This document shows positions 41,401-61,365 of a stretch of 64,000 nt of DNA, one piece after another. The DNA comes from Halonotius aquaticus (GTDB lineage: Archaea > Halobacteriota > Halobacteria > Halobacteriales > Haloferacaceae): positions 1-64,000 of the forward strand of contig NZ_QKNY01000012.1 in NCBI RefSeq assembly GCF_003605575.1, read 5' to 3'. The translations under genes and the position numbers were made by a program. How positions within the stretch are numbered: the first letter of the stretch is position 1; every line of letters starts with the position of its first letter. The notes below the pieces were generated by a model, which saw only the letters and a program-made list of their open reading frames with translations, was not told where the DNA came from and searched no databases.

Positions 41401-41582
41401 GCACGAAGACGGAGAGGTTCGTGCGAAGCGGCCCAGCGGTTCTCGACCATACTCCGGCGAGCGTCGTTCCGCGTTATGTAGAGAATACTTCCCAGCGAAT
41501 CGGTTGCGATGTCATCAGCCCGCTGAAATGCCCGTCGTTCCAATCGGGCGTGTTTCGAACCGGTGAGAAGCGTTGAATCCAT
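38394..41582 (-). CDS. AddB-like PD-(D/E)XK nuclease with Fe-S cysteine set
   Basis: 1062 residues. The N-terminal half is helicase-like but inactive-looking: a degenerate first loop LLTGSKHARLERR and no proper Walker A, as in AddB/RecC-type subunits. The C-terminal 330 residues are the nuclease: YSASRIERYVECGFKFYA, GSYVHDVLERFF, GYIDRVDVN, then LYDYKTGRAPY and FQLPIYLLA. The Cys in YVECGF plus CRYCDYRRACDVRH near the end form a four-Cys set as in AddB/Cas4 iron-sulphur nucleases. It pairs with the helicase gene downstream (11 bp overlap). The promoter should lie in the 106 bp before 41583. Confidence 0.88.
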   Translation of the reverse strand: MDSTLLTGSKHARLERRAFQRADDIATDSLGSILYITRNDARRSMVENRWAASHEPLRLRAETLDAVVREWYEELHGPVQPLVGQLNRRLAEYALDRSTAETDGALAGEPASAALADSFSSRFSLFDDAGVGTADALVAEFEGSALDDRITTATVDAYRHYRNLHADYVDEWVCTRGEMFHAVSTAEQSLSALSPELDVVVLSGYHEFRPVERRLIERLVDELPMIALLPLHQDGRSGVDAVAEDALDVYEALDFETVDLEPVDESGRAFGTITESLYRPDPDSVPAPDTLRWRELPTPEREIRFVARELRTELANGRDPDDLAVVIPGTEAYSGYVEDTFDTFDIPHVTTAASQLNRTFTGSIVHDLLNLAEADPRAKNLTSLLANPLVDIVPTDQANAVTAAARRRDTVSVAPLLDDVDDQAATLIEELLTTLETLRTGDIEDATDTLRRLLDDRFNLKETTEDYATGAEQAVEQRAYDLVDEVLTSFESLASVSSNLSPLALFTRAFDGVPIRVPQRAAGGHVEVMGLLDARMRSFEKVFLVGLTSEHFPVTSEHPAFFEEMTDAHPRFDTGDERLRGRYLFATLLANVDQLTITTPEAGDEESAVVRSPVLDELQRVTDIEPETGVDDRVGSREDLQRHIAATADQRAAVSRAGDRGDISPDQTKRMDRGLHCADKRGTAGLSEHDGVLEPETVDEVYPPSEREPYSASRIERYVECGFKFYADNVLGIEDPDDVEVAPTPLETGSYVHDVLERFFADLQDDIDEGVDLPKFDRDTLATHLSDIAVEELHDADFQYDGLFYERWKAELFAGLSDEGSRLYEAGSNPHNAPEQGLFARFLDNELSRDDTDRPHLFEAPFGEGLPDSDAGPFTVERPDGSTVSIRGYIDRVDVNREGEQPSLTLYDYKTGRAPYMTKTTGGTKFQLPIYLLAAADVVTGDLFDQGSLSATYYQVRPPNDLKVPRGVESKFDSEVELRRFLDDIVPEWLGQIDDAIANGRFHTTLLSARGANCRYCDYRRACDVRHHRKREFVNEVGTDEAAYVPLRVRDDKDIEAVMGDD

Positions 41583-44792: not shown

Positions 44793-46520
44793 ATGCCGGA
44801 CGGCGATGATATTCATTCGGTCCACAGGATCGCCGGGGAATTTCAGAGGAGTACATATTCTATTTTCGAGGACAGTCGCGAGAAAGACATCGCACTATGG
44901 CAGCCAGGGACCGTCGTCGAAGATATTCAATCACTCCCCAGCCCGAGAGAGGCGAAACAGAGGGCAGAGTCGTTCCTGAGTCTGGCGAATAGCTGCGACC
45001 TCGCGGTTGCTCCCGAGTGGAGTTACAGTGTGGATTGGGTGAGGGATCACAACGAACTGTTCGCCAACGAGAGCCCGTTATTTGTCCTGGGCTGCCGTCC
45101 AGTAGAAATCGAAGAGATCCGGGAGACACTCGAAAACCTAAACGAAGACTTCCGCGTGATTGGAGAGGACCTACCGGACGAACCCGGCAAAGAGTTCGTC
45201 ACCCCGACTATAATCCCGCTGCGTGCCGATGCGCTTGATGGTGTCGACGATCCGATAATCGTAATCCAGTACAAGACATACCCGATGAGCGAAGGGGCCA
45301 ACCCTAACGAGGCCGACAACCTCGCATTAGGCAGCCGGATACATCACTTCGGTCCGTCGAGCGGTCCTGGAATCGTCGTCTGGACTTGTTCAGACCTACT
45401 GAATGAGGACCTTCGGGATCAAGTAATCACTTACGCACAGAGAGGCAACATCGTTGTACATCCACAGTGTAACCCGGAGCCGTTTCACCCCGAGTGGACC
45501 GACTTCCGCTCGCGTATATTCAATAACAGGAATGACGTAACGTACGTTTGTGCCAACTGGGGAAACGTCCCAGGTGTCGACGAGGACGAAGTACAGTGGG
45601 GGTATTCAGGTGTATATCAGAAGGCGCAAAAGTGGTCGTCACTCGTAAACTACGACAGAACATACAACAACGCAGGTTTGCACGGAGCGAGCTTGTCTAA
45701 CCACGCTGAATACGTCTGGACGCTGGTGGACGACGGGGTGAGTAAACTGCGTGTACGACGAGAAGGGAACAGCTCCGCTCCAGCTCAGGCACGCCGACCA
45801 GAACCACAGATACTGAGTACATCCACCTGGGGCGGATCCGCGTATGACGAACCTCCGGGAAGGATAGACGAGTGCGGGTGTGAGGTCTGCGACAACTGCG
45901 ACTGTCAGGAGTGCTCAAACTGCAGTCGATTGGAACGGCAGAGACAACTTCCCGACACGCCACGTGACGCGGAGCTAGTCACTGCGGTCACACTTTGGCG
46001 CCTCGAGGTAGACGAGATGGACGGTCTCGATACGAGGTGGGACGTGCCGCTGGCGGCACTCAAGAATCTCCAAGGGAACGGAGATGAGGAACTGGGGCAC
46101 TCGTTCGCGGTTCACGAACACCGCCGTGGTAACAGTGTGGAAAAGAATTCGAGACGACTCCTAGAGACATTCCAAGCGGCCAGCGAGGGGTATGGTCGTT
46201 CCGTTGACCCAGCGGGCCGATGTGGACCATTAGATATCCCGATTAATGCCACCGACAATGGTGAACGTGGCGTCGATATTTCGCTTTCGCGGCTTGACGA
46301 TCCGACGGCTGGGACACGTCGACAACGCCTCACTGACATCGCCAAGTTGTGGATCCATCAGGAACAGAGGAATTTTAAACCGCTTGTCTTGATGGTATCG
46401 GCTGCTGAGACTCAATTGGAAGGAATAGACGGACTAGAGGACGTGACAAATGGCAAGGTTGAACCAGAAGACATCACCGCGAGTGGTTCGCAAGTCAAAT
46501 TTGTAGAGGTGAACCGATGA
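44793..46520 (+). CDS. Nitrilase-fold (carbon-nitrogen hydrolase) protein with Cys-rich cluster
   Basis: 575 residues. Residues 60-300 show the Glu-Lys-Cys triad of the nitrilase superfamily in order and context: LAVAPEWSYS (E75), IVIQYKTYP (K161) and GIVVWTCSDLL (C199), followed by IVVHPQCNPEPFHP and FRSRIFNNRNDVTYVCANWG, which fits the usual last strand of the fold. Residues 361-377 contain seven Cys in 17 positions, a probable metal-binding knuckle. The last 190 residues (LDTRWDVPLAALKNLQGNGD and on) are unassigned. The stop overlaps the Rad50-like gene start (ATGA). Nitrilase domains occur fused to reverse transcriptases in DRT defence systems, but here there is no RT. The substrate is unknown; NAD- or amide-type chemistry is speculation. 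Confidence 0.8.
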   Translation: MPDGDDIHSVHRIAGEFQRSTYSIFEDSREKDIALWQPGTVVEDIQSLPSPREAKQRAESFLSLANSCDLAVAPEWSYSVDWVRDHNELFANESPLFVLGCRPVEIEEIRETLENLNEDFRVIGEDLPDEPGKEFVTPTIIPLRADALDGVDDPIIVIQYKTYPMSEGANPNEADNLALGSRIHHFGPSSGPGIVVWTCSDLLNEDLRDQVITYAQRGNIVVHPQCNPEPFHPEWTDFRSRIFNNRNDVTYVCANWGNVPGVDEDEVQWGYSGVYQKAQKWSSLVNYDRTYNNAGLHGASLSNHAEYVWTLVDDGVSKLRVRREGNSSAPAQARRPEPQILSTSTWGGSAYDEPPGRIDECGCEVCDNCDCQECSNCSRLERQRQLPDTPRDAELVTAVTLWRLEVDEMDGLDTRWDVPLAALKNLQGNGDEELGHSFAVHEHRRGNSVEKNSRRLLETFQAASEGYGRSVDPAGRCGPLDIPINATDNGERGVDISLSRLDDPTAGTRRQRLTDIAKLWIHQEQRNFKPLVLMVSAAETQLEGIDGLEDVTNGKVEPEDITASGSQVKFVEVNR

Positions 46521-49498
46521 CCGATATCCCCACAGAGCTGGAAGAGGCTGGAGAGGTAACTACAGTCCAACCGAGGGAAGACAGTGCTGACGAGCCGGAA
46601 GGTATAGAGAGCGCGGGTCCGCTGTATCGAATAGAACGGACTCGGGAACAAGGGTTCGATGACGAGGTGTTGTTCGTGCGACTGCTGGGTGATAACGATC
46701 ACGACTGGGAGACGCTACTGGAGATAGACACACGACAGCTTGAATTGGAGTTCTACGACGACGATACGCCGAACCAATGGAACATTCAGCTTTTCTGGGT
46801 CTACGAGGACGAGAGTAAGCCTGACACCGAGTTTCGCCGCGAATTTGAGAGAAAGACGAAATTCGCCATCCGACGGTGTGTCCCCTGCGAGTCGCTAGAG
46901 GAGTTCCTCCGGCCGCTGGAGCACAGCCGTAGGGCACTATCCGAGGTGAACGACGAATTCGGGCGCCATGCACTCATCCAGCGGGTGACCGGCAACAGTC
47001 TGGGGTTCTTGTTCGATCAGAAGACCAGTATTGACCAGAAGTTCGAACGACTGTTAGAAATTGATATCGATGATGTCGGAGACGTTCACGTCCAGTCGGC
47101 GTCACCGACGACCAACGACCGTCCATCGGCAGTCAACACTGTCGAACTGGGAGACTTCCGAAAAGACGCGTCCAGACGGGAGCTTGAGGCGTCGCAATTC
47201 ACACTCCTATACGGCCGTAATGGGAGCGGGAAGACGAGCATACTCGACGGGATCACGATGGGGCTCGTCGGTCAGACCCGACGTGACGACGAGCGTGTCG
47301 ACTCCTACGACGGGCTGAGTGTCACGCTAGAGGGTGATGACGAACCGCTTCCTACGGATTCGAAGTCAATCAATAATAGAATCGCCGACTGGTTCGGGTT
47401 CCGGCCGCAAGGGCCAGCGAGACGGCACGTCGAGTTCTACCGGGTCAACTATCACGAGGCCGGCGAGACGACGCGACTGCTCGAACCGTCGACAGACTTG
47501 GAGATCGAGCGAGTATTTAGGAACTTCCTCTACGGCGAAGATCTCGCGTATGCCACGAAAGAGAAGGACAAGCTTCTGGACCTGCTCGACGGGAAAATCG
47601 AGGATGCGGAAGAGGATATCGAAGAGGTCGAAGCGGAACGAGACAAACTCCAAGACCGGCGAAACGAGGTGAAAAAAGCACTCTCGACGCTCGGAAGCGC
47701 CCGACGCGACCTTTCGTCGGCAGCGTCTGCGCTCGTGGAGAACGAAGGCGAACATGAAGATGAGGTGCCGCCAAGTGATCGGATCTCTCGGTGGCGAGAC
47801 TGGATGCGACGGTTCGAACAGCTTGAGAGAGCACTTGACGCTACGGTGTCAGATCTGGCCTGGGAGACTACCCGCGACCTACGGTCGAGACTGAACGACG
47901 AGGTGGACCTTCTCAATCAGCAAAGGAAGGATCTCAACAATATCCGGGATCTGAAAGACGAGCGTCGACGGGTGGTCAAGGTCGCGAAACAAGCTGAGTC
48001 CGAGAACACCGCAGAACTGCCGTTTTCGACGTTCTTCACTGGACTCCTCTTCGTTGCTAATGGAATCAGCTGCGAGGATATACGGCGACTCGTCCGGGGA
48101 ATCGAAGAGACGGATCTCAAAATTAACCAGGTCGAGTCTATACAGTCCGCCGAGCCGTGGTATGCGATTTTCGAGTCGGCACTACGTGAACAGCACGAAG
48201 ATTTGGAGAAAACCCGCGACCGACTAGTAGAGCTCGGTGATCTTGAGGAACGTCGGAGAGAACTCCGTGAGCAGATCCGTACGGATACGGAGGAGTACCT
48301 CGAGATCACCGACGATGAAGACATTCAACACTGCCCAGCCTGTTACGTCGAACAGTCTGCCGAGGACATCCGGACACGCGAAGAGCCCGAACACACACAC
48401 GACGCGGGCGGTGTTCCGGAGAGCCTTATTGAGTCGCTGGAGAACGTTGAGCAGGCGCTAGAGGTAGTCGAGAGTGGCAATCTGGCGGCCATTGACGACG
48501 ACATCCGTCGGTACAGGAACCAACTGTGTGGCCTCGACGACGTCCCGCGGCTGTTCGGTTTCGTTGCGGACGGTAAAGAGGGGGCTCTGTCTCCCAAGAC
48601 GACTCCTGAGACGGTGGAGGCCATTGCTAGGCTAACACAGGACCAGACGGTCTACAACCGTTCGACTGATGCGGTACTATCAAGCGTAATAGATCAGATC
48701 GAAAGCGGCATCGCAGAGCAAACTTCGGAGATGCGTGACTTCGATCCCGGTACAGAGATACAGCGACAGATCGACGACTGTGAGGATCGACTGTCGGCCG
48801 TTCAGCAGGGACTTGACGTCCTAGAAAATCAATGGCCGGAAGAACTGCTCGATGCCAGCCCCGCGGTCAAGTCTGACCTTCGGACGATTGAGTTTGCAGT
48901 CGAAGAGGCGGCAGAAGCGGCCGAATCAAAGCCAGCCTCGAAGCTATCAGACGAAATTGACACAAAGGCAGAGAAGATTGACCGTTTGAAAGATCGTATT
49001 GAACAATTGGAGGTGGCGCGAAAGCACCTCGGGGAAACGTTCGTGGGAGTTGAAGAGAGTCTCGACAAGGTGCTCGGAGAGTATACCGAGATAGTCACGA
49101 TACTGTTCAAAGTATTCCAGCGCCCCTACGACTTCAAGCGCGTCGAACTCACTAACGACAACGAAGAACTTCAGGTCGTTCGGCGAGACAGTGGGGAGGT
49201 AGTAGGAATAGATGAGATGAGTTCTGGGCAGCGGACGGCACTCGTGTTGGCTATATTTGTCACCAACAACCTCGCACACGACTCTGCGCCGCCTCTGATG
49301 CTGCTAGACGAACCATTCGCTCACTTGGACGAGCTCAATACGCTATCGTTCTTCAATCTCGTGATTGAACTTGCGGTCCGGGGAGATCGACAGATCATAT
49401 TCGCTACCGCGAACGACAACCTCGCCTCGCTACTGGAGCGTAAGGTTGGCGAGACCGAAGCGTTCGAACGGGTCAATCTGGAGAGCCATCCGAGTTAG
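46517..49498 (+). CDS. Rad50/SMC-like ABC ATPase with zinc-hook-like motif
   Basis: 993 residues. A unique 215-residue N-terminal domain precedes the ATPase. Walker A is LLYGRNGSGKTS at 231-242. Long coiled coils run at about 340-420 and 440-700 (DLLDGKIEDAEEDIEEVEAE and on). A CPAC hook-like motif (QHCPACYVEQS) is near 603. The C-terminal ATPase half has the signature MSSGQRTALVLAIF near 900, Walker B PLMLLDEPFAHLDE near 927 and an H-like IIFATAND. These are the parts of Rad50/SbcC/RecN-type machines that sense or hold DNA ends. No Mre11 partner is adjacent; the coupled partner is the nitrilase-fold protein. The 3' end overlaps the converging decayed gene by 26 bp. Confidence 0.88.
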   Translation: MTDIPTELEEAGEVTTVQPREDSADEPEGIESAGPLYRIERTREQGFDDEVLFVRLLGDNDHDWETLLEIDTRQLELEFYDDDTPNQWNIQLFWVYEDESKPDTEFRREFERKTKFAIRRCVPCESLEEFLRPLEHSRRALSEVNDEFGRHALIQRVTGNSLGFLFDQKTSIDQKFERLLEIDIDDVGDVHVQSASPTTNDRPSAVNTVELGDFRKDASRRELEASQFTLLYGRNGSGKTSILDGITMGLVGQTRRDDERVDSYDGLSVTLEGDDEPLPTDSKSINNRIADWFGFRPQGPARRHVEFYRVNYHEAGETTRLLEPSTDLEIERVFRNFLYGEDLAYATKEKDKLLDLLDGKIEDAEEDIEEVEAERDKLQDRRNEVKKALSTLGSARRDLSSAASALVENEGEHEDEVPPSDRISRWRDWMRRFEQLERALDATVSDLAWETTRDLRSRLNDEVDLLNQQRKDLNNIRDLKDERRRVVKVAKQAESENTAELPFSTFFTGLLFVANGISCEDIRRLVRGIEETDLKINQVESIQSAEPWYAIFESALREQHEDLEKTRDRLVELGDLEERRRELREQIRTDTEEYLEITDDEDIQHCPACYVEQSAEDIRTREEPEHTHDAGGVPESLIESLENVEQALEVVESGNLAAIDDDIRRYRNQLCGLDDVPRLFGFVADGKEGALSPKTTPETVEAIARLTQDQTVYNRSTDAVLSSVIDQIESGIAEQTSEMRDFDPGTEIQRQIDDCEDRLSAVQQGLDVLENQWPEELLDASPAVKSDLRTIEFAVEEAAEAAESKPASKLSDEIDTKAEKIDRLKDRIEQLEVARKHLGETFVGVEESLDKVLGEYTEIVTILFKVFQRPYDFKRVELTNDNEELQVVRRDSGEVVGIDEMSSGQRTALVLAIFVTNNLAHDSAPPLMLLDEPFAHLDELNTLSFFNLVIELAVRGDRQIIFATANDNLASLLERKVGETEAFERVNLESHPS

Positions 49499-50035
49499 GA
49501 ATTGAGTCTATCTGATAGCCAGCAGACCGCAGAAATTCACGGAGATGTTCAACCTCCTGCTTCTCCTCAGGTGAACTCGTCCCGAGTAGTTCTTCAATCA
49601 CCTGCTCTCCATCCTCACAGAGAGTAATTGATTCATTGAAAGGAGTGTTCTCAAGTGGATCTCGTCGCTCATCAATCACTATCGGCTGCCACCCGCCCTG
49701 GTACTGGTATCGGTAGAGGGTGATAGTGCGGACGGTGTCTTCGTCGACAAAGATGCTCGTTTGCTGGCGACCGCGATCTTCACGCTGTCGAGATCCGCAG
49801 CAAAGTCCTCGAAATTGTGGAACTCAGCAGGAACCGGCCCATCGACGACGTGAGTGATGATTCCCGGCCAAGTGAACCCATAGATGCGCTCAAAGAAGCT
49901 GACACCATTATCGTCAGGAGAATCAAACACAAGGAGAAGATCGCCCAGCTGGAGTTCTGTACCGTCTACGCTGATATGCGATGAATACGGATAGGCGTCG
50001 CCGTCGTCGAGGACTTCGATATCCGGCTTCGGCAT
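49473..50035 (-). pseudogene. Frameshifted gene, unknown product
   Basis: Two minus-strand frames, 50035-49679 and 49679-49473, are pieces of one protein. The first runs normally to FEDFAADLDSVK and then turns into low-complexity Ser/Thr. The adjacent frame is open before its first ATG with natural sequence (GRQQTSIFVDEDTVRTITLY, then YQYQGGWQPIVIDERRD) and continues to NSDGSPD. A single-base change in about 49770-49805 restores an uninterrupted chain of about 187 residues. Family unknown. It may be a mutation, a sequence error or, less likely, programmed frameshifting. Confidence 0.65.
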
Positions 50036-50045
50036 ATTGTCCGAG

Positions 50046-50251
50046 TCTAATTGGAGCTACAAAGAGATAGCTAATGGAGCACGCCAGATTTTCCCGAGCG
50101 TTCAAAGTGCATCTCTCCCACCATCCGGACCCCTCACGCCGGTTGGATCGACATCGTATCCTTCTCGACCAAGCAAGTCGACAACTAACTGTTCCAGTCT
50201 CGCACCGTCCCCGATAGCGCGGAGATTTGCTTCAAGAGCAGTATTTGGCAT
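50046..50251 (-). pseudogene. Truncated PD-(D/E)XK-like gene relic
   Basis: From ATG 50251, 49 residues read LEQLVVDLLGREGYDV and GVRGPDGGRDAL and then hit TGA at 50102-50104. One frame over the sequence resumes as ERSGKSGVLH and meets a TAG. The pattern GPDGGRDA is the start of a restriction-nuclease-like fold of the Mrr type, whose ExK part is missing. It is a decayed nuclease gene next to another decayed gene. Confidence 0.55.
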
Positions 50252-50294
50252 CTATTGGTTCATCTGGGAGGTCCATACTTACAAAACTATCCAG

Positions 50295-53200
50295 CTACTG
50301 TGGCTGCTTTGTTGACTTCTCTCGGTTATCGAGGAATTGATCACACCACGTCGGAAGGGAATCCATCGATCCATTTTCAGCCACCGTCCCATCGCCTGCA
50401 ATGCGGGTAAACATGCCGTCCCGCCCCCACGCACACACGACTGGTTCTTGGTCTTGATCGGGTCGAGTCACGATTCGCTGTTGGAGTCGCGACGTATCCT
50501 CACTCACATTCTGTAGTACTGTGAGAAGCTGTCCTAGAAGTGGATGACCTGGTGCAAGATGCTGAACCGATGGGAACTCGTCAGCACACACAGCCGAGAA
50601 CGTCACCGCCACTTCATCAGCACCAGTCGCAATAGCCTGTGCAATCGTCTGTTCCCCATCCATAGCTGGAACCTCAATCGGTGCGTCACCTATTGAGAGG
50701 CGATACGTACTATCCGCAAAGTCGAAGTCCCCGTCATCGTACTCGAAGTCAATCTCCTGAACCGAGGTGAATTCGACACCGGCCTCAGCAAGAGCCTCGT
50801 TATCGACCAACACTGACTGGAGGCTTGGTGTCTCGAACGGAGGTTGATACTCGTATTCCTCCTCGCCGACATCGACGAGATCTGGGTGACTGTATGATTG
50901 CCACGCATCAAGTTTTGCTTCGTCGACAACATCCTGAGCGACGAGGTCGTCAACGTCCTCCAGTGACTCTCCGACATCGACGCGATCGCCCTGATCGCGC
51001 TCTTCGAGTTCTTCAGAGAACTCACGATCAGCTGATTCGACTGCAGACTGGTCGTTAGCACTGTCCGCGTTCAAGGTCGCATCCCGGATCTGTTGGCTGA
51101 CGCCGGAGAGTATGGGTTGCATATCACCGACGACGTTTTCGAAGAGGCCAATCCGGTCGTCAAGGCGATCATAGATGTCCGTCTCAACCGTATCCTCGTA
51201 GCTGTAGTTGAGAATGCGAATCTCGTCAAATCGTTGGCCGATGCGGTCGATCCGACCGATACGCTGTTCAACCCTCATCGGGTTCCACGGCAGGTCGTAG
51301 TTGATGAGCGCCCCACACTCCTGGAGGTTTAGCCCCTCACTCGCGGAGTCGGTACAGACGAGGATATCGACCTGCCCATCATCGCGTGAGAATTCACGCT
51401 TCACGCGCTCTTTCCCGACATGCTCCCACGTTTCAGAATCGGGGTCGTAAAGCTCGCCCCCACGACCGGAGTACGTCGCGATTGTCGCTCCAAGAAGGTC
51501 CGCGAGACTGTCCCGGATGAAGTCCATTGTGTCCGCGTACTGCGTGAAGACAATCACCCGGTTGTGGCCAGCCCGATCCAGCTCGTCGAGGTCGTTGTAC
51601 AGCTGCTGAATCTTCGGGTCTGTATCAACCAAGTCTAAGTCGTTGACGAACGCTTCCAGAGCCTCGATTTCTTCCTCGATTAGCTGTTTCCCCTCTTCAG
51701 TCACGCTCGGGATGAGTTCAGAGAGGTCCAGGTCGTCGCTACTAGCGTCGAGTTCATCCAGAACGTCCCCGTCGTCGAGGTCTGCGTTTTGTAGCGTTTC
51801 GAGGACGACCTGCTCCGCATCACCATAGTCCCGGTCACGAGCGCGCTCCCGACCAGCAAGCACGGTCCGTTGCGCGCGGAGGGTCTCAAGCCGGTGTTTC
51901 AGGCTCTGACTGATCGCATAGACACTCGACGTGAGTCGCTGCCGGTACGTGGTCATCACGAACCCGATGGCGCGTGTTTGGGCTTCGTCAGTCTGTTGGG
52001 CTCGCTTGTAGAACTCACGGGTGTACTCGTCGATCTGGTCGTAGACCGCCCGTGCCTCCTCGGTGAGTTTGATTTTCCGTTGTTCGGGATTCCGGTTCGG
52101 AACGGTCGTGTCGAGGAGTCCGACCGCCTCGTACTTTCGGAGTGTATCCCGCGTATTCCGATGGATGAGCGCGTCGACGGGTGTGGACTCTGCTAAAACA
52201 TCGCGGATGACTCGCCAACCGCCCGGAGAGAGTTCGTCAAGTGCGTCCTGTCGGTCGCTGCGGGACGCCATCAACCATTCGTCGGCGTCTTCAGGATAGA
52301 GGAGTCGTTTGAGTTTCGTATCCTCGCTCGCCTCAAAACGGTCGATATCGTACTCTGCCATCGCGTCGTCGACGTGGTCAAGATAGCCGTCGTAGGCGTC
52401 CCCATAGGCGCGTGCGAGCCGGCAGGCGGTCAGCACACGCTCTTTGGCAATGGCACGGTTCTGTCCGTCCTCATTAATCTCAAGCTCATCCGCAATGTGC
52501 TGGAAGACTTTTGAGGAGAATGGTCGATCCGTCGGGAGCCGGTCTTGGTGTTCCAGTCCATCGAGCGTGGCTTGCGTGTCCCAGGAAGCCTCTGCTTCGT
52601 CGGACTCTGAACCAGGATTGTTGAGAACTTCGTTGAGGGCCTGCGAAAGCCCGTCTCTAGTTTCGAAGAACTCCATGAAGGTATCCCGGTTATCCCAACC
52701 ACCCGGAAGATCCAGCAACTGCATCAGGTCATAGAGTTCGCCAGCGTGCAATTGCATCGGGGTAGCCGTCAGCAGGTAGTAGGCGTGCGTATAATCGCGA
52801 AGCTGTTCGAGAAGAGCGTAGAAATTACTGCCACGCCGGGCGTTGTGCGCCTCGTCGACGATGACGGCGTCCCACACGCCCATCCGGTCTTCCGTATCGT
52901 GGTCGCGTCCGCGGCAGCTTGCCGGGATGACGTCCCGAGACCGGTCGGATACCCGGTCTAAGGGAGCGACTTGATCCCACCGGTCGTCGAGACGGGCCGT
53001 GTGCCAGGACATAATGACGACCGTTGGCCCATCCAGCGGCGACGATGTATCGTCGTCAGTCGACTGCTGTTCGTAGAGGAACCGCCAGATAGGGCTGTCC
53101 GCCCATTCGTGCTCCCCGGTGAGGTCGAGATCTGTTACCGATGGTGGATAGTGGTCGCGGCCGCGGACGTCTCGGAATACGTGATCGCCCGCTGTGTCCC

Positions 53201-54245
53201 GGTCAAACCGGACGGCGTTGATGTTGAACTTTTCCCAGAGCTCTTCCTGCCACTGTCGCTGCAGACTCGCCGGAACCAGCAACAGCCCGGTTTCAAGCTC
53301 GCCAGTAAGTCCAAGCCGGGAGAGTGTAAGACCGGCCTCGATTGTCTTCCCGAGTCCCACCTCGTCACACAGCAGGAAGCTTTGCGGATACGTGTTGACG
53401 AGCGTGTCCGAGACGACTCGTTGATGAGGCCACGGAGTGATCGTGCTCGCTTCCTCGGCCAGTGCGAGCCCACCGGGCGAGAGCGGTCCATCCTGAATGA
53501 TATTCGCTTTGTCGCGCTCCGTCGGCGGAGCTGTACCGTTCGCAATCTGAATCGCTTCTTGCAGATCGCTTTCCGTGTCGGGAGCTTTCCAATCGATGAT
53601 ATCCTCTTCAATCGCCTCGGGAAGATCATACACTTTGACGAAGGGGTGCTCATCATTCCACAGCCGCTCGAAGGTCTCCTCGTCGCCGGCGACGTAGTCC
53701 GCCTGTTCAGGAACCCACGACCGATGAACTTTGAACCGCTCATAGTTGCGAGCCCAGCCGCCGACCGTCTCGTTGACGCTGCCCTCAAACGAAATCGTGT
53801 TTCCGTCGCTATCGTGGAAGAGTCCAACTTTCGGATGGAAGATCTCCCAATCGTGAGAGGGAGAGCGTGGATAGGCGACCTTGATGTGGATCCGTCCCTC
53901 GCGGAGGAGACGCGCGAGAATACGGAGATTCGCATCCAGGCGTTCGTCATCGAGGTCCTCGAGGTTTTCCTCGAGGCGGTCGGTGAGCGTCTCTAGAACC
54001 GGACGGTCTGACTCGTAGAGTTCGGTGCCGACGATGAGACGCATTTCACCATCGTTCTCGACGAGGGCGTGAATGCCGTTGGCAGCAGCCGCGAGTGCCG
54101 TACTAGAGAAGTAGCCCGCGATCCGGTCGTATTGTTGACTGCTTTTCAGCGCGGGCTCGTAGAAATCCTTGACTAAGTGGGCTCGCCCCTGTTCGGGTTT
54201 GCTCTCGTAGATCGACTGCCACTCGCGGTCACGTAGATTAGTCAT
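50295..54245 (-). CDS. PLD-domain SNF2/RapA-like helicase of BREX/DISARM-like operon
   Basis: 1316 residues. The N-terminal 190 residues are a phospholipase-D-type nuclease domain: RIAGYFSSTALAAAANGI, then FHPKVGLFHD (H-x-K near 136) and FEGSVNETVGG. One HKD motif is visible, so activity would need a dimer. The helicase begins near residue 270: PWPHQRVVSDTL, CDEVGLGKTIEAGLTL (Walker A near 290), VIVDEAHNARRGSNFY and LLTATPMQL. The second lobe has NRVIVFTQYADTMDFI, CTDSASEGLNLQECGALI and EQRIGRIDRIGQ. It is closest to RapA/HepA-like and DISARM DrmD-like SNF2 proteins. It is the last gene of the five-gene operon, 17 bp after the methyltransferase. Likely a translocase that, with the ATPase and methyltransferase, acts on incoming DNA. 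Confidence 0.9.
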   Translation of the reverse strand: MTNLRDREWQSIYESKPEQGRAHLVKDFYEPALKSSQQYDRIAGYFSSTALAAAANGIHALVENDGEMRLIVGTELYESDRPVLETLTDRLEENLEDLDDERLDANLRILARLLREGRIHIKVAYPRSPSHDWEIFHPKVGLFHDSDGNTISFEGSVNETVGGWARNYERFKVHRSWVPEQADYVAGDEETFERLWNDEHPFVKVYDLPEAIEEDIIDWKAPDTESDLQEAIQIANGTAPPTERDKANIIQDGPLSPGGLALAEEASTITPWPHQRVVSDTLVNTYPQSFLLCDEVGLGKTIEAGLTLSRLGLTGELETGLLLVPASLQRQWQEELWEKFNINAVRFDRDTAGDHVFRDVRGRDHYPPSVTDLDLTGEHEWADSPIWRFLYEQQSTDDDTSSPLDGPTVVIMSWHTARLDDRWDQVAPLDRVSDRSRDVIPASCRGRDHDTEDRMGVWDAVIVDEAHNARRGSNFYALLEQLRDYTHAYYLLTATPMQLHAGELYDLMQLLDLPGGWDNRDTFMEFFETRDGLSQALNEVLNNPGSESDEAEASWDTQATLDGLEHQDRLPTDRPFSSKVFQHIADELEINEDGQNRAIAKERVLTACRLARAYGDAYDGYLDHVDDAMAEYDIDRFEASEDTKLKRLLYPEDADEWLMASRSDRQDALDELSPGGWRVIRDVLAESTPVDALIHRNTRDTLRKYEAVGLLDTTVPNRNPEQRKIKLTEEARAVYDQIDEYTREFYKRAQQTDEAQTRAIGFVMTTYRQRLTSSVYAISQSLKHRLETLRAQRTVLAGRERARDRDYGDAEQVVLETLQNADLDDGDVLDELDASSDDLDLSELIPSVTEEGKQLIEEEIEALEAFVNDLDLVDTDPKIQQLYNDLDELDRAGHNRVIVFTQYADTMDFIRDSLADLLGATIATYSGRGGELYDPDSETWEHVGKERVKREFSRDDGQVDILVCTDSASEGLNLQECGALINYDLPWNPMRVEQRIGRIDRIGQRFDEIRILNYSYEDTVETDIYDRLDDRIGLFENVVGDMQPILSGVSQQIRDATLNADSANDQSAVESADREFSEELEERDQGDRVDVGESLEDVDDLVAQDVVDEAKLDAWQSYSHPDLVDVGEEEYEYQPPFETPSLQSVLVDNEALAEAGVEFTSVQEIDFEYDDGDFDFADSTYRLSIGDAPIEVPAMDGEQTIAQAIATGADEVAVTFSAVCADEFPSVQHLAPGHPLLGQLLTVLQNVSEDTSRLQQRIVTRPDQDQEPVVCAWGRDGMFTRIAGDGTVAENGSMDSLPTWCDQFLDNREKSTKQPQ

Positions 54246-54262
54246 ACTAGAGGTGTTTCGAG

Positions 54263-57169
54263 TTAGGCGTGGTCGCCGAGTTCGCTCTGTTCGAGAGTGT
54301 CGTCTGAGGCGTTAGTGAAATCGGTAGGGGTGAATTCGAGGCCAAGAGCGTCATGGGCTTTCCCTAATGCGAGGTCGCGAGCAGCCTCCCATTCCGAACT
54401 GTTTTTGGGAAGAACTTGTAGGAGGGCTTTGAGAGTTGCTTTGAACCCCGCATCCGTATCGAAGTTGCGTTCTTTGAGCCAATCAATTGCGACATCCTCA
54501 CCCTGTTTATGATAAACGTGCATTGCGGCGTGAACCGCATCCAGAGCGATCGTGTAGGACAGTGCTTCAGGATCGACGGGTGTCCGGTTAGATCTCTCTT
54601 CGGGCGGGAGTGTTATATCCTGGACGCGATCCTCATGGGTCTTCAGCTGAATATCACCACGCTTCTTCCCCCAGAGCTTTGTAGACCGTTTGATATCATC
54701 GATATCAACCCCGAGACCGAGTCCTAACTGATGGCCATCATCGTAATCGAATGTATCCGATTCATGGACTAGCCAAGAAAGGATGTACCACTCTGTAATA
54801 TCGTCTAAATCACCGAGACGTTCTCCGTCCAGATATTCGTCGACAAGAACGCGTGTTACAGCCTCCCGGGCCTCCTCTAAAGCACGGCGAGGGGGGATTT
54901 CTTGATCCTGGTCATCAACAACCGGATAGGCGTCAGCGTAGACCTTGAGTGTCGGTCCGAATGCGGATATGATCACATCAGTCTTGGTGAGAGAGAGACC
55001 TGAGTCGAGGAGATCACGAGCGGCATCCTTTGCGACCGCTCTTGTATCCGCCCGTACATCGCTCCAAAGAGTCGGACTCTGATTGTCTCTATGTTCATCT
55101 TTAGAATGTGGTTTACGACCAGTCAGAAGAAGTGTGCTGTCTGCAGATCCACCCCCCTGTGTGTCTGTTCGATGAGGCATTTCGCTGGTGATTGGATGAG
55201 TGGATGTTATCGTAAACCCAGAACGAATTAGGGAATTTGTGAGCGTATCCCAAGCGCTAGATTCCTTGTGTGTGAACATCACAGTCATAACGCCCCCTGG
55301 TTGAAGGACTCTATAGAGCTCTTGGAATATGTCCTTCATTTTGTTTTCATAATCCTCAGCAGCTAGATCTGACTTTGAATTGGAGGATGAAGCCACATCC
55401 TCGTATTCGGCTACGTTGGCAACCGCTTCACTATCTTTGTCAGTCAGATCATCCCGGAAGATGTCGGGGAAGATGCTGGAGAGATATTCTTTGAGCCAAA
55501 CATAGCACATATCGGCCATCTCGGAGTAGATTATACTATCATAATATGGTGGATCGATGATAACGGCCTGAACAGAATTCGAATCTATTTCCAGATTTGC
55601 TGCGTCACTTTGAGAAACACGGACATCATCGGCGGCTTCATCGTTATAGTACGATACAATTTCTTCATAAGAGTCTCGTACGCGATTGAGATGATCGTTA
55701 TAGTCCTGAAATCCTAATGCAGGATTATTCTCGACGAAGGTCCATTGAAGAGTGAAATGTTTTCCACCAAGAGCATTACCCAAGTTTCCAAGTCTCGTAT
55801 CTAGCGGAGAGAAACGGGAATTTCGGTCTACGATTTTACTTGCTACTAATGACAATGCGGTCAGTACTGCCTCCCCTTCGTTCTCGCCCTCATCTGATAG
55901 AATTTCATCTTCAAATTCCTTGAAGGTCCGAAGATATTCGTACTGGGTGACTAGCTGGCGAGGGGTGAACGCATCCCGCCATTTTGTAACACCGTATGGG
56001 CCCGCTCGATCTTCATCACCAATATATCGCTGAACGTCAAGGAGCGTACTGAGTTCAAAATCAGAATTAATCCGTTCTCGAGCTTTCTCCTGGGCCTCAT
56101 AGTCGTCAGAGTTTGGAGCTCGCCATCCTGTCTTCCCACCTGACTTAACATATTTCACCCCATATGGCTCATAGTCAAAGTCACCATCACGGAGGCGAAT
56201 TCGAATCTCTTCGGATTCCATTACAATCCCACAATTCAGGCATTCAGCACCACTACGTGTGTGAGGCCCTTGTTGAGGATTGAATTCAGACTTTGAAACA
56301 TCATCCGGAAGATTGACAACTTCGTAGTTAATCTCCGAAGCATCCTCTGATACAATCGGGCGGGCCGCTACTCCTTCAGAAGCTGATTTTTTTCTAAGCC
56401 ACCACTTCTTTGCTAACGGGATATCACAGCCACACTCGGGACAATCGACAGTATACGTACTAACGTAATGAGATGGTGTCTGGTGATCTTTCTCTCCAGG
56501 GAAATACGAATCAACACGCTCACCAGCACGTTCGTTAATTTGCTCACCCCACCGATTCAATTCGTTTGAGATGGAACCAACCTCCCGTGCATATTCTAAG
56601 ATGACTTTCAGGATTACAGTTGGAACTGGATTGAGTTCATTTGCTACAGTGGGAAGTCCGTATCTAGCGGACTCTAGAGGGATTACTCCTCCACCAGCTG
56701 TAGGATCCAAAACCGTCGGAAGTTCACCATCCCAATGGTCTCTAAGAAGGGAATGAATTTCACCCATTTCAGAAGAAGTGGGAGTCTGAGAATACGGACG
56801 GGGATAGCCATAATGATCGTCTAGAGTTCCAGTACGCTCTCCCTCAGTCCTCTTTCGCTCGGCCACGTACTCTTCAATATCGACATCAATATCGTCACGG
56901 GGGCCGATTTGCATCCAATCAAGGATAGTATTGGCGTCAATATCTGGAGGTAAAACTGACGAGAGTGTTGCCAATCTAGATACAGGGGTAGGACGACGAG
57001 CAAACCATGGATGGAGATAACGATGAGGAGGCATCCGGTTCGGGTTTGCTTCCTTGAGATTCTCAATACCTACCGCTTTCAGGGGAAGTGTCCCCTCAAT
57101 TGCGACACGCTTCAGCTCCGAATCACTATCCTGACTTTCGGGATTTTGGCTCATCGTTAAATCACTCAA
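54263..57169 (-). CDS. DUF1156-like adenine-specific DNA methyltransferase
   Basis: 968 residues. ANPNRMPPHRYLHPWFARRP near the N-terminus is characteristic of the DUF1156 group (COG1743). The AdoMet-binding motif I is LDPTAGGGVIPLESARYG near 155, and the catalytic motif IV is VIIDPPYYDSIIYSEMADMC near 540. Two Cys pairs (CPECGCD and CLNCGIV) near 240-320 form a zinc site. It would methylate adenine N6 in DNA to mark self. It overlaps the upstream gene by 8 bp. PglX-like enzymes of some BREX types are in the same group. Base composition is lower in GC than the rest of the operon, so this gene may have been swapped in. Confidence 0.9.
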   Translation of the reverse strand: MSDLTMSQNPESQDSDSELKRVAIEGTLPLKAVGIENLKEANPNRMPPHRYLHPWFARRPTPVSRLATLSSVLPPDIDANTILDWMQIGPRDDIDVDIEEYVAERKRTEGERTGTLDDHYGYPRPYSQTPTSSEMGEIHSLLRDHWDGELPTVLDPTAGGGVIPLESARYGLPTVANELNPVPTVILKVILEYAREVGSISNELNRWGEQINERAGERVDSYFPGEKDHQTPSHYVSTYTVDCPECGCDIPLAKKWWLRKKSASEGVAARPIVSEDASEINYEVVNLPDDVSKSEFNPQQGPHTRSGAECLNCGIVMESEEIRIRLRDGDFDYEPYGVKYVKSGGKTGWRAPNSDDYEAQEKARERINSDFELSTLLDVQRYIGDEDRAGPYGVTKWRDAFTPRQLVTQYEYLRTFKEFEDEILSDEGENEGEAVLTALSLVASKIVDRNSRFSPLDTRLGNLGNALGGKHFTLQWTFVENNPALGFQDYNDHLNRVRDSYEEIVSYYNDEAADDVRVSQSDAANLEIDSNSVQAVIIDPPYYDSIIYSEMADMCYVWLKEYLSSIFPDIFRDDLTDKDSEAVANVAEYEDVASSSNSKSDLAAEDYENKMKDIFQELYRVLQPGGVMTVMFTHKESSAWDTLTNSLIRSGFTITSTHPITSEMPHRTDTQGGGSADSTLLLTGRKPHSKDEHRDNQSPTLWSDVRADTRAVAKDAARDLLDSGLSLTKTDVIISAFGPTLKVYADAYPVVDDQDQEIPPRRALEEAREAVTRVLVDEYLDGERLGDLDDITEWYILSWLVHESDTFDYDDGHQLGLGLGVDIDDIKRSTKLWGKKRGDIQLKTHEDRVQDITLPPEERSNRTPVDPEALSYTIALDAVHAAMHVYHKQGEDVAIDWLKERNFDTDAGFKATLKALLQVLPKNSSEWEAARDLALGKAHDALGLEFTPTDFTNASDDTLEQSELGDHA

Positions 57170-57803
57170 TATGGTCCGTCAGCAACACTCGAAGGGCCTT
57201 TTCGCCGTTCGGACTCGACGGAGACCGACACTTTGCGTACCAGTAGTAACACTCCTCATCGCTCATCCGTGCAACGCCTCGAGCCAGCGACCGCATCCGG
57301 TCGATACGCTGGATCGGCTTCACGCCACGGAAGGCAACAGCAAGCCGGACGCCTGCCGTTTCGGGTAGGAACACGAATCCAGCCCCACCAGTAAGAACTT
57401 CTGAGGAATCTCCTGGCGTGCCCTCAATCGCCTCCCCGACGACGGCCTGGAGCGCACGGACACGGGTCGGATCAAGCCGTGCGACCTTTGCGCCGGCCCA
57501 CTCATCCCACGTCCAACCATCGAGCTTGGAAAGGAGGTCGTCCCCGGCGACGTCCGAGACGAGATCCTCGACTGGTGTAATACTCAGCGAACGACCATCC
57601 CGCTCCAGGCGATCACGGCGGGCTTCAGCCTGTTCACGAGGGAGTAGTTCGTGGAGCGTCCACTCGCCGCCACCGTCTGTCTCTCGGCGGACGAGCGTGA
57701 ACGTTGGGCGTCCACCGAACATACTCGTCCCGTAGCGAACCAGGCGATCCTCCTCTGTTCCCTCGGCGGGTGAGGTCTCAAATTCCGAACCTCGACTCGC
57801 CAT
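57162..57803 (-). CDS. Hypothetical protein between DUF499 and DUF1156 genes
   Basis: 213 residues. Features seen: RYGTSMFGGRPTFTLVRRET near 24, a mixed middle, and a C-terminal helical end (GVARMSDEECYYWYAKCRSP then LRVLLTDHI). A gene of this size occupies this position in related operons (annotated as DUF3780 or DUF7680 in some genomes, from memory), suggesting a structural adaptor between the ATPase and the methyltransferase. Start and stop overlap or touch the genes on both sides. No catalytic residues are visible. Confidence 0.8.
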   Translation of the reverse strand: MASRGSEFETSPAEGTEEDRLVRYGTSMFGGRPTFTLVRRETDGGGEWTLHELLPREQAEARRDRLERDGRSLSITPVEDLVSDVAGDDLLSKLDGWTWDEWAGAKVARLDPTRVRALQAVVGEAIEGTPGDSSEVLTGGAGFVFLPETAGVRLAVAFRGVKPIQRIDRMRSLARGVARMSDEECYYWYAKCRSPSSPNGEKALRVLLTDHIE

Positions 57804-60800
57804 CAGACCGTCACCTCCGAGCTCGCCTGAATCGGGCCACGCCCTTCGACTCGGACATCGATGTTGCCCGCATCAAGGTCATTATCGAGGGCATCGAGGA
57901 GGTCGTCACCCTCATCAGTAATGGGTTCGGGCTCGTCAAACTGGAAGCGGAACTGGATGGTCTCTCGATCATCGCCGAACGAGCCGGGCTGGTCGATCAC
58001 GTCCCGGAATCGGCTCGGTGAGCCTGTGAATTCTGCGCTGTACGTCCCGTCGTCAGTCCGGGTTTCGTACTCCATTCGAACTGTCACCGCGTGTTCACGG
58101 GCTTTGAATCCGGGGCGTTGGCTAACGAACTTGGCCGCCTGGAAGGGATCATCCCCACCGACTTGGATTGTCACTTCTTCTAGCAGCGGCGTCCGGTCAG
58201 TTCCAGCCTTCGATTCCGCATCTCGACGGACTTCCGAGAACGCCCGCGAAGCGGACATCATTTTCTTGCTCGCCTCCCAGGATTCCTCGGGCTGGCACTC
58301 CTGGCATCGACCTCGTTCGTCCAGCAGCTGCTCGCTAGCGACTTCTTTGCCGCAGGAACTACAGGTCGTATCGGACTGGTGTTCCTCACAGTAGTAGGGT
58401 TCGCTGCCTTCTGGGTTTTCAACCTCCGTTCCACACTCGGGACAGGTAGCAACCGTCTGTTCTGGCCGATCGATTTCGTCGAGGTGGTCGTCAACGAGCG
58501 CGTCGACATCTCGGTAGACGACGAAAGGCCCATCATCCTTCTTACTAGGAATTTGGACATCGCTGTCCCGAATTGAGGTCTCAACATCGGGGGATTCCGC
58601 GAACGGTTCCGGATCCGGCCACGTCGACGGCTCTGTCGTCCCGGCCCAGTACGCTGTCCCAGACTCGCCATCCCAGTATGCGTACCCGTGGTCGCTAACG
58701 AGAGAGGAGACAGTCTCTCGAATCGGTTTCGTACTGAAGAGGTAGTCCAGCCCCGGCTTCTTCGCGTATTGGTTGACCAACGCTTCGGTGGACATAGCGT
58801 CTTGGGTCTGCTGCCAGAGTTTCTGTTGGACGTGAGCGGATCCACGAGCACCGGCGTCCCGCTTCACAATCTTATCCTCTAGCGTTGTCTGGACAGCATC
58901 AACCAGTGTCGTCCCGCCGTTGGATTCTGTCGCACCGATGGTGATATGGGTGAGTCCGTCCCGATCAGGGTAGTAGAGGTGCCGGTAGACGTTCCGAACG
59001 AGTTCACCGAGCATCAGCTGTGCCTCGTCGCTCCGTTCTCGGAGCTCCTCGATTTGTTCTGAGGAGAGGTCGGCTTTCTGCTCAGGGCTATCAAGCAGGG
59101 CCTCTATGGCTTCGAGACGCCGAGCTTCGTCAATGGCCGCATTCATTCGATCAGCGTCAGGAGCGAGGAACAGAGCGTAGTTCTTGTAGATTCGCGTCTC
59201 GGTCTCTCCCTCGTGTTTTGCGGCTTGCTGCTCGTAGAGCTGAGTCACCCGGTTTGGTGGCGTATCGCCGCCGTCTTCGACAGCAGCGGTGTCTGGGTGC
59301 ATCACCGCGAGCTTCGGCGTATCCGGGGTATCTGGTAAGTCTGCCGGCGATTCAGGGAACTCCACCGGCTTGAAGCCACCATCACCAATTTCCTTCGAAG
59401 TGAGACGGTTCTCGAAACGCGAATGAGCACTCGCTTCTGGAGTAGACTCAATCCGCTGGTCGATTATCCGGATCAGGTTTGGTTCTTGCTTGAACCGGAG
59501 CCGCTCTTCCTCGTAGAGGAAGTAACACGCGACGTCCATATCGTCGCCCCGAAGTGCGGATAGTGCGGCATCGTAGTCGTCAAAGTTCAGATCGGGATGG
59601 CCGATAGCGAGGTTCAGATCGGCGTGAGTTAGACCAGCGGCCTGTTCACCGTATGCGAGGCTGTGCCAGAGAACTGTCGTTGTTAGATGGCTCCCAAGGG
59701 GCGGAAGACCGTTTTCAGTCCATTTTCGATCCTCAAGTTGTGCGTGCGCAGTACCATCGTCGTCGTAGATGTCGGCGGTCACTGCAGGACCGAGATCGAC
59801 GAAGTCGAACAGCCGCTCACGAAGGATTGTCTGAATCCCACCACCAGGATCGTCGTCGGCAACTGTGAGGTCATAAATCCGAATCCAGTGGCGGTCGTAA
59901 CTGTCGGGCTGGTGATTCCAGAGATAGTAGACGGCACGAGCAAGTAAGCGGAGGGCATCGCGCGTGCGCTGGAATCGGGGGATTGTATCGATCTTGTCCG
60001 TGAGGGCGTCGATTAGGGAGGGATGGAAGGGATATTCGCGTGCTAGGACATCCACGTAGCCAGCGTCGGTGGCTTCCTGTGGGTACTGCCGGTCTTCCTG
60101 GTCATAAAATTGGAAGTATGAGTCTGCGGCTTCTCGCGCGGTGTTTTCTGGGACTTCCGAAAAGAGGCGGTGCTGGAGAACCTGCCCAATCTCGTTTTCG
60201 TCGGTCGGCGTGACTGTCTTGTGCTGCCGCCGGCCGATCTCGTTGACCTCCTCAATGTGATCACGGACGCCATCACGAACCCGGTCAGCCTGCTCACCAA
60301 ACGCCGTATCCGCGATGGAGTAGACGACCGTAACGTGCTCCGATTCGGCAGCCGCTTCGAGGAGTGCCATCACGAACGAAAGCGTCTGATCAGCGAGTGT
60401 CTTGTCGCCGACAGGCGTGCCCGCGGCCTTGTTCATGTAGTCAGCGATTTCGTCAATCAGAATGAGGGCCGGCTGGTCGTACTGAGCGAAGAGTTTCGAG
60501 AGCGTTCCCTCACCGGGTGCGTCCCGGTCTTGGTCGTAGTCCTTGAGGTACTCGTAGCCATCGAGGCCGTAGAGCTGGTACGCGAGCTCCCCCCACATCG
60601 TCCGAGTGTTCGGCGCATTCGGATCATCGTCGGTATGGCGGGCATCCTTGCTATCAGCCTTCGTTCCGATGAAGACTCCCGTCGCAATATCGAGGCCCTC
60701 TGCCACCGCATCTTGATAGTCGGCCGCAAGCTCCTCGTCGCCGTCCAGCAGGTAGTGCGAGAGGTCGTCAATATCTACGGGGTTCTCAGCAAGATGGTAA

Positions 60801-61117
60801 GAGGCGATGAGGTCGTGCGTTTTCCCACCACCGAACCGTGTGTCGAGACAAAGAATGCTCGAAGTATATGAGCCGGGGTCGTACTCTGTCGTTGCCAAGA
60901 AACGTCCCGTGAGATTGGAGAGTAGCGTACGGAGCCCCTCCGTGGGATAGGTCATATCGTAGAATGAGTCGGGATCTCGGTAGACTGGTGCGGCCTTCTC
61001 AGGGTTGTGGACGACAGTCGAGAGTTTCGCAGCGAACTGTTCTTCTTGGAGCGAGCCGTCTAAGACGTCGTCTCGTGGCTGACAGCTTTCGAAGAGATTC
61101 GGATACTCACTACTCAT
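57803..61117 (-). CDS. DUF499-like (PglY/BrxC-type) large ATPase
   Basis: 1104 residues. Walker A LDTRFGGGKTHDLIASYH is near residue 94 and Walker B LILIDEIADYMNKAAG near 216, the signature of the DUF499 (COG1483) P-loop family to which PglY/BrxC-like BREX ATPases belong. The middle is helical with SEVPENTAREAADSYFQFYD and long charged segments. Residues 900-975 hold zinc pairs (CPECGTE, YYCEEH, CSSCGKE, CQECQPE). The C-terminal 130 residues are strand-rich. It touches the 57162 gene (1 bp overlap) and overlaps the AbrB-like gene by 8 bp. It probably forms the energy-driven core of the restriction complex. Confidence 0.9.
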   Translation of the reverse strand: MSSEYPNLFESCQPRDDVLDGSLQEEQFAAKLSTVVHNPEKAAPVYRDPDSFYDMTYPTEGLRTLLSNLTGRFLATTEYDPGSYTSSILCLDTRFGGGKTHDLIASYHLAENPVDIDDLSHYLLDGDEELAADYQDAVAEGLDIATGVFIGTKADSKDARHTDDDPNAPNTRTMWGELAYQLYGLDGYEYLKDYDQDRDAPGEGTLSKLFAQYDQPALILIDEIADYMNKAAGTPVGDKTLADQTLSFVMALLEAAAESEHVTVVYSIADTAFGEQADRVRDGVRDHIEEVNEIGRRQHKTVTPTDENEIGQVLQHRLFSEVPENTAREAADSYFQFYDQEDRQYPQEATDAGYVDVLAREYPFHPSLIDALTDKIDTIPRFQRTRDALRLLARAVYYLWNHQPDSYDRHWIRIYDLTVADDDPGGGIQTILRERLFDFVDLGPAVTADIYDDDGTAHAQLEDRKWTENGLPPLGSHLTTTVLWHSLAYGEQAAGLTHADLNLAIGHPDLNFDDYDAALSALRGDDMDVACYFLYEEERLRFKQEPNLIRIIDQRIESTPEASAHSRFENRLTSKEIGDGGFKPVEFPESPADLPDTPDTPKLAVMHPDTAAVEDGGDTPPNRVTQLYEQQAAKHEGETETRIYKNYALFLAPDADRMNAAIDEARRLEAIEALLDSPEQKADLSSEQIEELRERSDEAQLMLGELVRNVYRHLYYPDRDGLTHITIGATESNGGTTLVDAVQTTLEDKIVKRDAGARGSAHVQQKLWQQTQDAMSTEALVNQYAKKPGLDYLFSTKPIRETVSSLVSDHGYAYWDGESGTAYWAGTTEPSTWPDPEPFAESPDVETSIRDSDVQIPSKKDDGPFVVYRDVDALVDDHLDEIDRPEQTVATCPECGTEVENPEGSEPYYCEEHQSDTTCSSCGKEVASEQLLDERGRCQECQPEESWEASKKMMSASRAFSEVRRDAESKAGTDRTPLLEEVTIQVGGDDPFQAAKFVSQRPGFKAREHAVTVRMEYETRTDDGTYSAEFTGSPSRFRDVIDQPGSFGDDRETIQFRFQFDEPEPITDEGDDLLDALDNDLDAGNIDVRVEGRGPIQASSEVTV

Positions 61118-61337
61118 CGATTTCCTCCGTAGATGATGAATCAGCCGCTGGTTTGGACACGATCACAAACTCACTCTCCGTACTGTTCTCGATGATCGCC
61201 TTGGCGATTCCTTTCGATTCGGCGATATCGACCTTGATGGCGTCCCCAACCTCTGCATCGAATTGGTCGAGTTCAGGTCCCGAAAGATTCACCCGGCCCG
61301 ATTGACCGGTGTTCTGTCCAATTGTCTTCTGAGTCAT
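61110..61337 (-). CDS. AbrB-like small regulator of the BREX/DISARM-like operon
   Basis: 75 residues from ATG 61337; GTG 61349 in the same frame is the alternative. A TATA-like GTTATAAC at about 61367-61374 puts the transcript start near 61344, favouring the ATG. GRVNLSGPELDQFDAEVGDA and IKVDIAESKGIAKAIIEN form the beta-hairpin and helix of an AbrB/SpoVT-type DNA-binding domain; the tail is acidic. As first gene of the five-gene operon, with ACTTAG-type repeats just upstream of its promoter, it probably controls the operon. A MazE-like antitoxin role is possible but no toxin is beside it. Confidence 0.75.
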   Translation of the reverse strand: MTQKTIGQNTGQSGRVNLSGPELDQFDAEVGDAIKVDIAESKGIAKAIIENSTESEFVIVSKPAADSSSTEEIDE

Positions 61338-61365
61338 CTGGATACTCACATCACCTGACGGGAAT

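Follow-up and report, generated by a model that had tools for sequence, protein, structure and literature searches.

A haloarchaeal DUF499-centred operon with a DUF7680 subunit: a candidate separate lineage of BREX-related systems with an exchanged methyltransferase

What kind of system is encoded by a compact operon of the haloarchaeon Halonotius aquaticus, in which a small leader gene is followed by genes for a DUF499-type ATPase, a 213-aa protein, a DNA methyltransferase (MTase) and a nuclease-helicase fusion? The operon lies in a stretch of 64,000 nucleotides (bases 1-64000 of an 81.9-kb contig, hereafter the window), and the original prediction, made from the letters alone, described it as a BREX/DISARM-like operon without PglZ. 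The five open reading frames (ORFs) that it had placed on the minus strand, overlapping or nearly touching, are all intact, with junctions of -8, -1, -8 and +17 bp in the order of transcription. We infer that they encode an antiviral system that resembles restriction-modification and is of the DUF499-centred BREX-related (BR) kind, a reading that we consider likely. On balance, and with less confidence, we also favor a separate BR lineage defined by the family DUF7680, with members in haloarchaea, cyanobacteria, rhizobia, actinobacteria and a Firmicute. Its sole specificity module would be the MTase, exchanged by recombination on a constant chassis of ATPase, DUF7680 and HKD-helicase.

The ATPase (1104 aa; 57803..61117, minus strand) matches the Pfam profile of DUF499 (PF04465) with 111 bits against a cut-off of 23, as well as the PADLOC profile HmaC (278 bits) and NF042962 (199 bits). 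Its Walker A (GGGKTH) and Walker B (LIDE) motifs are intact and conserved in 68 sequences, and its C-terminal segment is Cys-rich. The DUF1156-type protein (968 aa; 54263..57169, minus strand), a predicted N6-adenine DNA MTase, is HmaB-like (184 bits with HmaB, 128 bits with NF042963) and has intact and conserved motifs I (LDPTAGGG) and IV (DPPY), which enclose a variable target-recognition part at approximately residues 200-520. The presumed effector is an HKD(PLD)-SNF2 helicase fusion (1316 aa; 50295..54245, minus strand) that matches PLD_Helicase with 236 bits and, over residues 4-346, PbeA (both PADLOC); SNF2-rel_dom and Helicase_C are above the Pfam cut-off and PLDc_2 is slightly below it (5.9e-6). 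The HKD part (approximately residues 30-200) carries the elements HPKxG...D and GSxNET, conserved in 56 sequences, the SNF2/Helicase_C part occupies approximately residues 270-1010, and the helicase motifs DEVGLGKT, DEAH and QRIGRIDRIGQ are intact and conserved. Pfam detected no C-terminal restriction endonuclease (REase) on this protein. Thus, the profile searches agree with the three parts named in the original prediction and with the BREX kinship that it had proposed for the DUF499 and DUF1156 proteins. All features that define the BR kind (a DUF499 ATPase, a DUF1156-type MTase, with activity predicted here, and a Swi2/Snf2 helicase) are present and, judged by these profiles, the operon belongs to the DUF499-centred BR/Hma kind. 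Operons of this kind were expected to be already in the literature, and they are, as the Hma system (PMC8565338) and as the DUF499-centred BR systems (PMC12839542).

The 213-aa protein (57162..57803, minus strand), which had been left as unknown, belongs to a defined family, Pfam DUF7680 (PF24728; 1.6e-35), its sole Pfam family match; no PADLOC model matched it. We regard it as an obligate fourth core subunit. DUF7680 is present in 46 of 292 haloarchaeal genomes, and the order ATPase-DUF7680-MTase-helicase is kept in all 46, partial loci being found solely at contig ends; therefore, the operon arrangement is not due to chance. Among the strong DUF499 loci of the haloarchaeal sample, 47 of 49 are DUF7680 loci. 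The other two are second copies: the one in genome G262 is cut off by a contig end, and the one in G161 (L226, on G161:C2) is what is left of a near-identical operon after truncation, with the 79-aa leader gene and an ATPase fragment of 907 residues (97% identical). The genome of the window possesses a second complete operon, diverged from the first, on contig C1.

Outside the haloarchaea, the four-gene unit is located on plasmids of Pseudanabaena, Aminobacter, Rhodococcus, Sinorhizobium and Nostoc, where the DUF7680 gene is annotated as "hypothetical"; these bacterial members rule out DUF7680 as a haloarchaea-specific family. The first three genes occur in the same order in Allocoleopsis, in a record that stops before any helicase. 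A scan of the genome collection confirmed 179 DUF7680 relatives, and the best 80 of these 179 are nearly all from cyanobacteria, with one from Desulforamulus. No DUF7680 was found in viral contigs. A non-haloarchaeal archaeon (L086, G407:C183) has genes for a DUF499 protein, a weak DUF7680-like protein below the cut-off, an MTase and an SNF2 helicase in the same order, the helicase apparently being without an HKD domain. Plasmids of Halobellus limi (Haloferacaceae) and Haloterrigena salifodinae (Natrialbaceae) carry ATPases that are 97% identical, therefore the operon moves between families; on the evidence of such comparisons, it is mobile and often plasmid-borne.

Comparison of the window operon with its 11 relatives revealed exchange of the MTase alone. 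In eight of them the ATPase, DUF7680 and helicase are ~93-99% identical to those of the window and the MTase, where readable, is 64-81% identical; the remaining three (L066, L077, L082) are more distant across all genes. The MTase divergence is concentrated at residues 100-600, with identity mostly above 80-90% beyond residue 700, and the target-recognition region is often 40-60% identical among operons in which the other three genes, which serve as the internal control, are ~94-98% identical. At the nucleotide level, five relatives are ~87-98% identical over the ATPase, DUF7680 and helicase genes and 52-75% inside the MTase gene, with sharp breakpoints at its borders (a drop within the first few hundred bases and a recovery at the gene end). 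Among all 13 haloarchaeal pairs whose ATPases reach 97% identity or more, the median identities are 99% for DUF7680, 98% for the helicase and 47% for the recognition region. The exchange is also seen in other, independent clades (L047/L056 versus L051/L053; L050 versus L052; L045 versus L060) and is weaker in cyanobacteria.

An MTase exchanged alone on a constant chassis is most simply explained if target specificity resides in the MTase only and the target sequence is not read by the ATPase, DUF7680 or helicase. HsdS is an exchanged specificity module of this type in Type I restriction and would be the analogue of the MTase here. Starting from the published BR model (PMC12839542), we propose that self DNA is marked by the DUF1156 MTase through N6-adenine methylation of a single target sequence, which the variable recognition region of the enzyme would determine. 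Together with this MTase, the DUF499 AAA+ ATPase and DUF7680 would form a complex on DNA that inspects those sites. Where the sites are unmethylated, ATP hydrolysis would license translocation by the SNF2 motor of the HKD-helicase, whose HKD nuclease would then cut the foreign DNA, probably as a dimer, since each chain holds one HKD half-site. DUF7680, like DUF3780, for which a role as a methylation reader was proposed (PMC12839542), may act as a sequence-independent adaptor or reader that joins the modification state to the chassis; its near-constancy beside exchanged MTases fits such a role.

The same proteins could also act in an abortive or surveillance mode: methylation would only protect the host from the HKD-helicase, which would be triggered by a feature of the invader other than unmethylated sites (e.g. 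replication intermediates or anti-restriction proteins). SNF2-nuclease fusions elsewhere sense DNA intermediates, and extra sequence or auxiliary genes are inserted between the MTase and the helicase in 14 haloarchaeal loci. We nevertheless consider this unlikely, because MTase-only exchange on a constant chassis is most simply accommodated by target-specific restriction. Several observations weigh against target-specific restriction as proposed here. The MTase matches Pfam DUF1156 slightly below the cut-off (E 1.9e-4), the Asp of the HKD part stands one residue later than in the textbook HxKx4D, and only a single HKD copy was seen in the helicase. A fold search with the DUF7680 model in PDB and BFVD returned nothing meaningful, no solved structure being similar. 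Moreover, the exchange of the MTase could instead reflect its replacement under pressure on methylation alone.

Three types of DUF499-centred BR systems were defined, of which Type-2 has a helicase with an N-terminal HKD part and a DUF3780 gene in 98% of taxa (PMC12839542). The profile comparison of DUF7680 with DUF3780 by hhalign gave 73% in local and 84.5% in global mode (scores 38.2 and 36.5); in a control of ~200 shuffles the best genuine scores were 27.0 and 11.2, respectively, after exclusion of one shuffle with a spurious one-column match (score 128). With the bacterial DUF7680 proteins alone the values were only 10-15%, compared with 73-85% for the fuller alignment. AlphaFold2 models (pLDDT 73 for DUF7680 and 84 for DUF3780) have a common order of elements, strand-strand-strand-helix-strand followed by four helices; the DUF7680 model consists of a core of four strands and five helices and a haloarchaeal insert after strand 2. 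A fold search of the PDB with DUF3780 also gave nothing meaningful. The profile comparison and the predicted folds together suggest that DUF7680 is a remote homologue of DUF3780.

This relatedness opens the possibility that the operon is a divergent member of BR Type-2 and DUF7680 is DUF3780 under another Pfam name, so that no separate subtype would exist and the mechanism would be unchanged. Seven DUF3780 reference loci have the gene order of the window operon, with the fourth protein in the same slot and the HKD part at the helicase N-terminus (an eighth, from Deinococcus, is without the last two genes), and the ATPase tree puts DUF7680 and DUF3780 systems together opposite Type-1 (SH-aLRT 98), the Type-2 branch being long. 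However, in the trees built for the helicase and for the MTase, Type-2 is not joined to the DUF7680 systems, which form one group apart from both Type-1 and Type-2 (SH-aLRT 99). All these trees are quick searches over DUF7680, Type-1 and Type-2 systems only, and their exact branching is provisional. Furthermore, the DUF3780 model (PF12635) matches none of the 292 haloarchaeal genomes, although it is functional and recovered one relative elsewhere in the phylum, and DUF7680 is unmentioned in the main text of PMC12839542. We therefore treat membership in Type-2 as a serious though less probable option and retain the separate DUF7680-defined lineage as the preferred interpretation.

The operon begins with the leader gene (79 aa; 61110..61349, minus strand), an ORF that shares 8 bp with the ATPase gene. 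Its product had no match in Pfam, PADLOC or NCBIfam, and the label 'AbrB-like' given to it in the original prediction is unsupported. Homologues precede the ATPase in 19 DUF7680 loci, all within the broader sub-clade of the window; the leader gene is thus confined to a part of the haloarchaeal loci. It is possible that the 79-aa protein is a regulator.

Downstream of the helicase gene, tblastn with homologues from L045 and L063 identified decayed accessory genes (49473..50260, minus strand). They comprise the first 53 codons of an REase-like gene, followed by an accessory gene of ~200 aa that a frameshift has split into two ORFs in two frames (49679-50035 and 49473-49679). The accessory gene (~190-213 aa) has no Pfam or PADLOC match and recurs in eight further DUF7680 loci, where it can stand before or after the operon. 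An Argonaute-like (pAgo) gene adjoins it beside DUF7680 operons (L085:591-2009; also L051 and L056). The gap between the MTase and helicase genes contains, in L043 (5512-6807, minus strand), an MCM N-terminal/OB part fused to an HsdR_N-like PD-(D/E)XK nuclease, in L044 an SF1 helicase, and in L045 (13180-14151), L054, L055 and L060 members of a ~316-aa family without a Pfam or PADLOC match. The window operon is flanked by a gene pair (44793-49498) encoding a 575-aa protein without a family and a 993-aa SMC/LmuB-like ATPase. The same pair is found on the opposite side of a different DUF7680 operon (L047:14498-19203), so it may be a defense module of its own. Further away in the window are neighboring genes for a UvrD-helicase/PD-(D/E)XK protein (1212 aa) and another PD-(D/E)XK protein (1062 aa), an AddAB-like arrangement (34766-41582), and a Cas12f/TnpB-like gene (33462-34655).

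According to the literature searches made, the DUF499-centred kind is known, and its DUF7680-defined version and the MTase-only mosaicism appear to be new. None of the papers searched names DUF7680, and in the main text of PMC12839542 the searches found neither an occurrence of DUF7680 nor MTase-only mosaicism; its supplement, which was outside the search, may list DUF7680 loci under Type-1 or Type-2 without comment. No PADLOC model matched DUF7680, so loci of this type risk being classified as Hma or as incomplete systems. The fourth subunit, left as a "hypothetical protein" by annotation pipelines, now gains a name and a predicted fold. The definition of the DUF499-centred systems is largely computational, with their division of labor inferred. 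The natural mosaics, in which differing MTases are combined with a constant chassis, are ready-made MTase swaps, and they make directly testable a long-standing question about BREX-like systems: does the choice of restriction target rest with the MTase alone?

Among known systems, DISARM shares with the window operon the SNF2 (DrmD) and PLD (DrmC) folds, and the suggested link to DISARM goes no further than these folds, since no DrmA, DrmB or DrmC is present among the operon proteins; PLD is fused to the helicase and a DUF499 ATPase is present. The ATPase, MTase and helicase of BREX Type-3 (BrxC/BrxXI/BrxHII with PglZ) are distantly homologous to those of the window, which differs by the lack of PglZ and of a BrxC-type best match and by having an HKD nuclease instead. 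The reported absence of PglZ and of a DUF1998 protein was confirmed at the operon. A PglZ gene just outside the window was also looked for, and the profile search of the genome yielded only a sub-threshold match on another contig; the sole DUF1998/MZB match in the genome is an 809-aa frame on contig C9, which is not the contig of the operon. With their defining genes missing, the operon is neither BREX nor DISARM. A variant of either that lost PglZ or DrmB and retained the mechanism could account for the helicase matches to DrmD (207 bits) and BrxHI/II (206 bits) and for the weak MTase match to PglXI. However, PLD_Helicase, HmaB and HmaC match better, neither PglZ above the cut-off in the genome nor a DrmB-type DUF1998 on the contig was detected, and loss of PglZ cannot explain a cross-phylum lineage with its own fourth gene. 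This explanation is very improbable and already largely refuted.

The closest comparisons are with the BR types. In BR Type-3, PglZ and iSTAND are the defining features and the helicase carries no fused nuclease (PMC12839542); this type shares with the window operon the DUF499 ATPase, MTase and SNF2 helicase, whereas the window operon is without PglZ and has the HKD fusion. BR Type-1, to which the Hma system (PMC8565338) corresponds and in which the helicase nuclease is a C-terminal PD-(D/E)XK domain (PMC12839542), has a homologous helicase, methylase and ATPase, as the matches to the HmaA/B/C profiles indicate. It differs in its helicase-MTase-ATPase order, in the absence of a fourth gene and in an ATPase that is often HEPN-fused; the window operon, with the reversed order, DUF7680 and HKD, falls outside it. 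BR Type-2 is the most similar in gene order, in four-gene logic and in the N-terminal HKD part on an SNF2 helicase, and it likewise has a small alpha+beta protein between the ATPase and the MTase (the NCBIfam anti-phage-associated DUF499/DUF3780/DUF1156/PLD set, as in Mesorhizobium L092 and Pseudomonas L099). The 213-aa protein fails the DUF3780 test, and therefore we do not assign the operon to Type-2. Thus, no known typed system is matched completely: DUF7680 stands where Type-2 has DUF3780, and the helicases of DUF7680 systems are longer (1050-1316 aa) than those of Type-2 (~900-936 aa).

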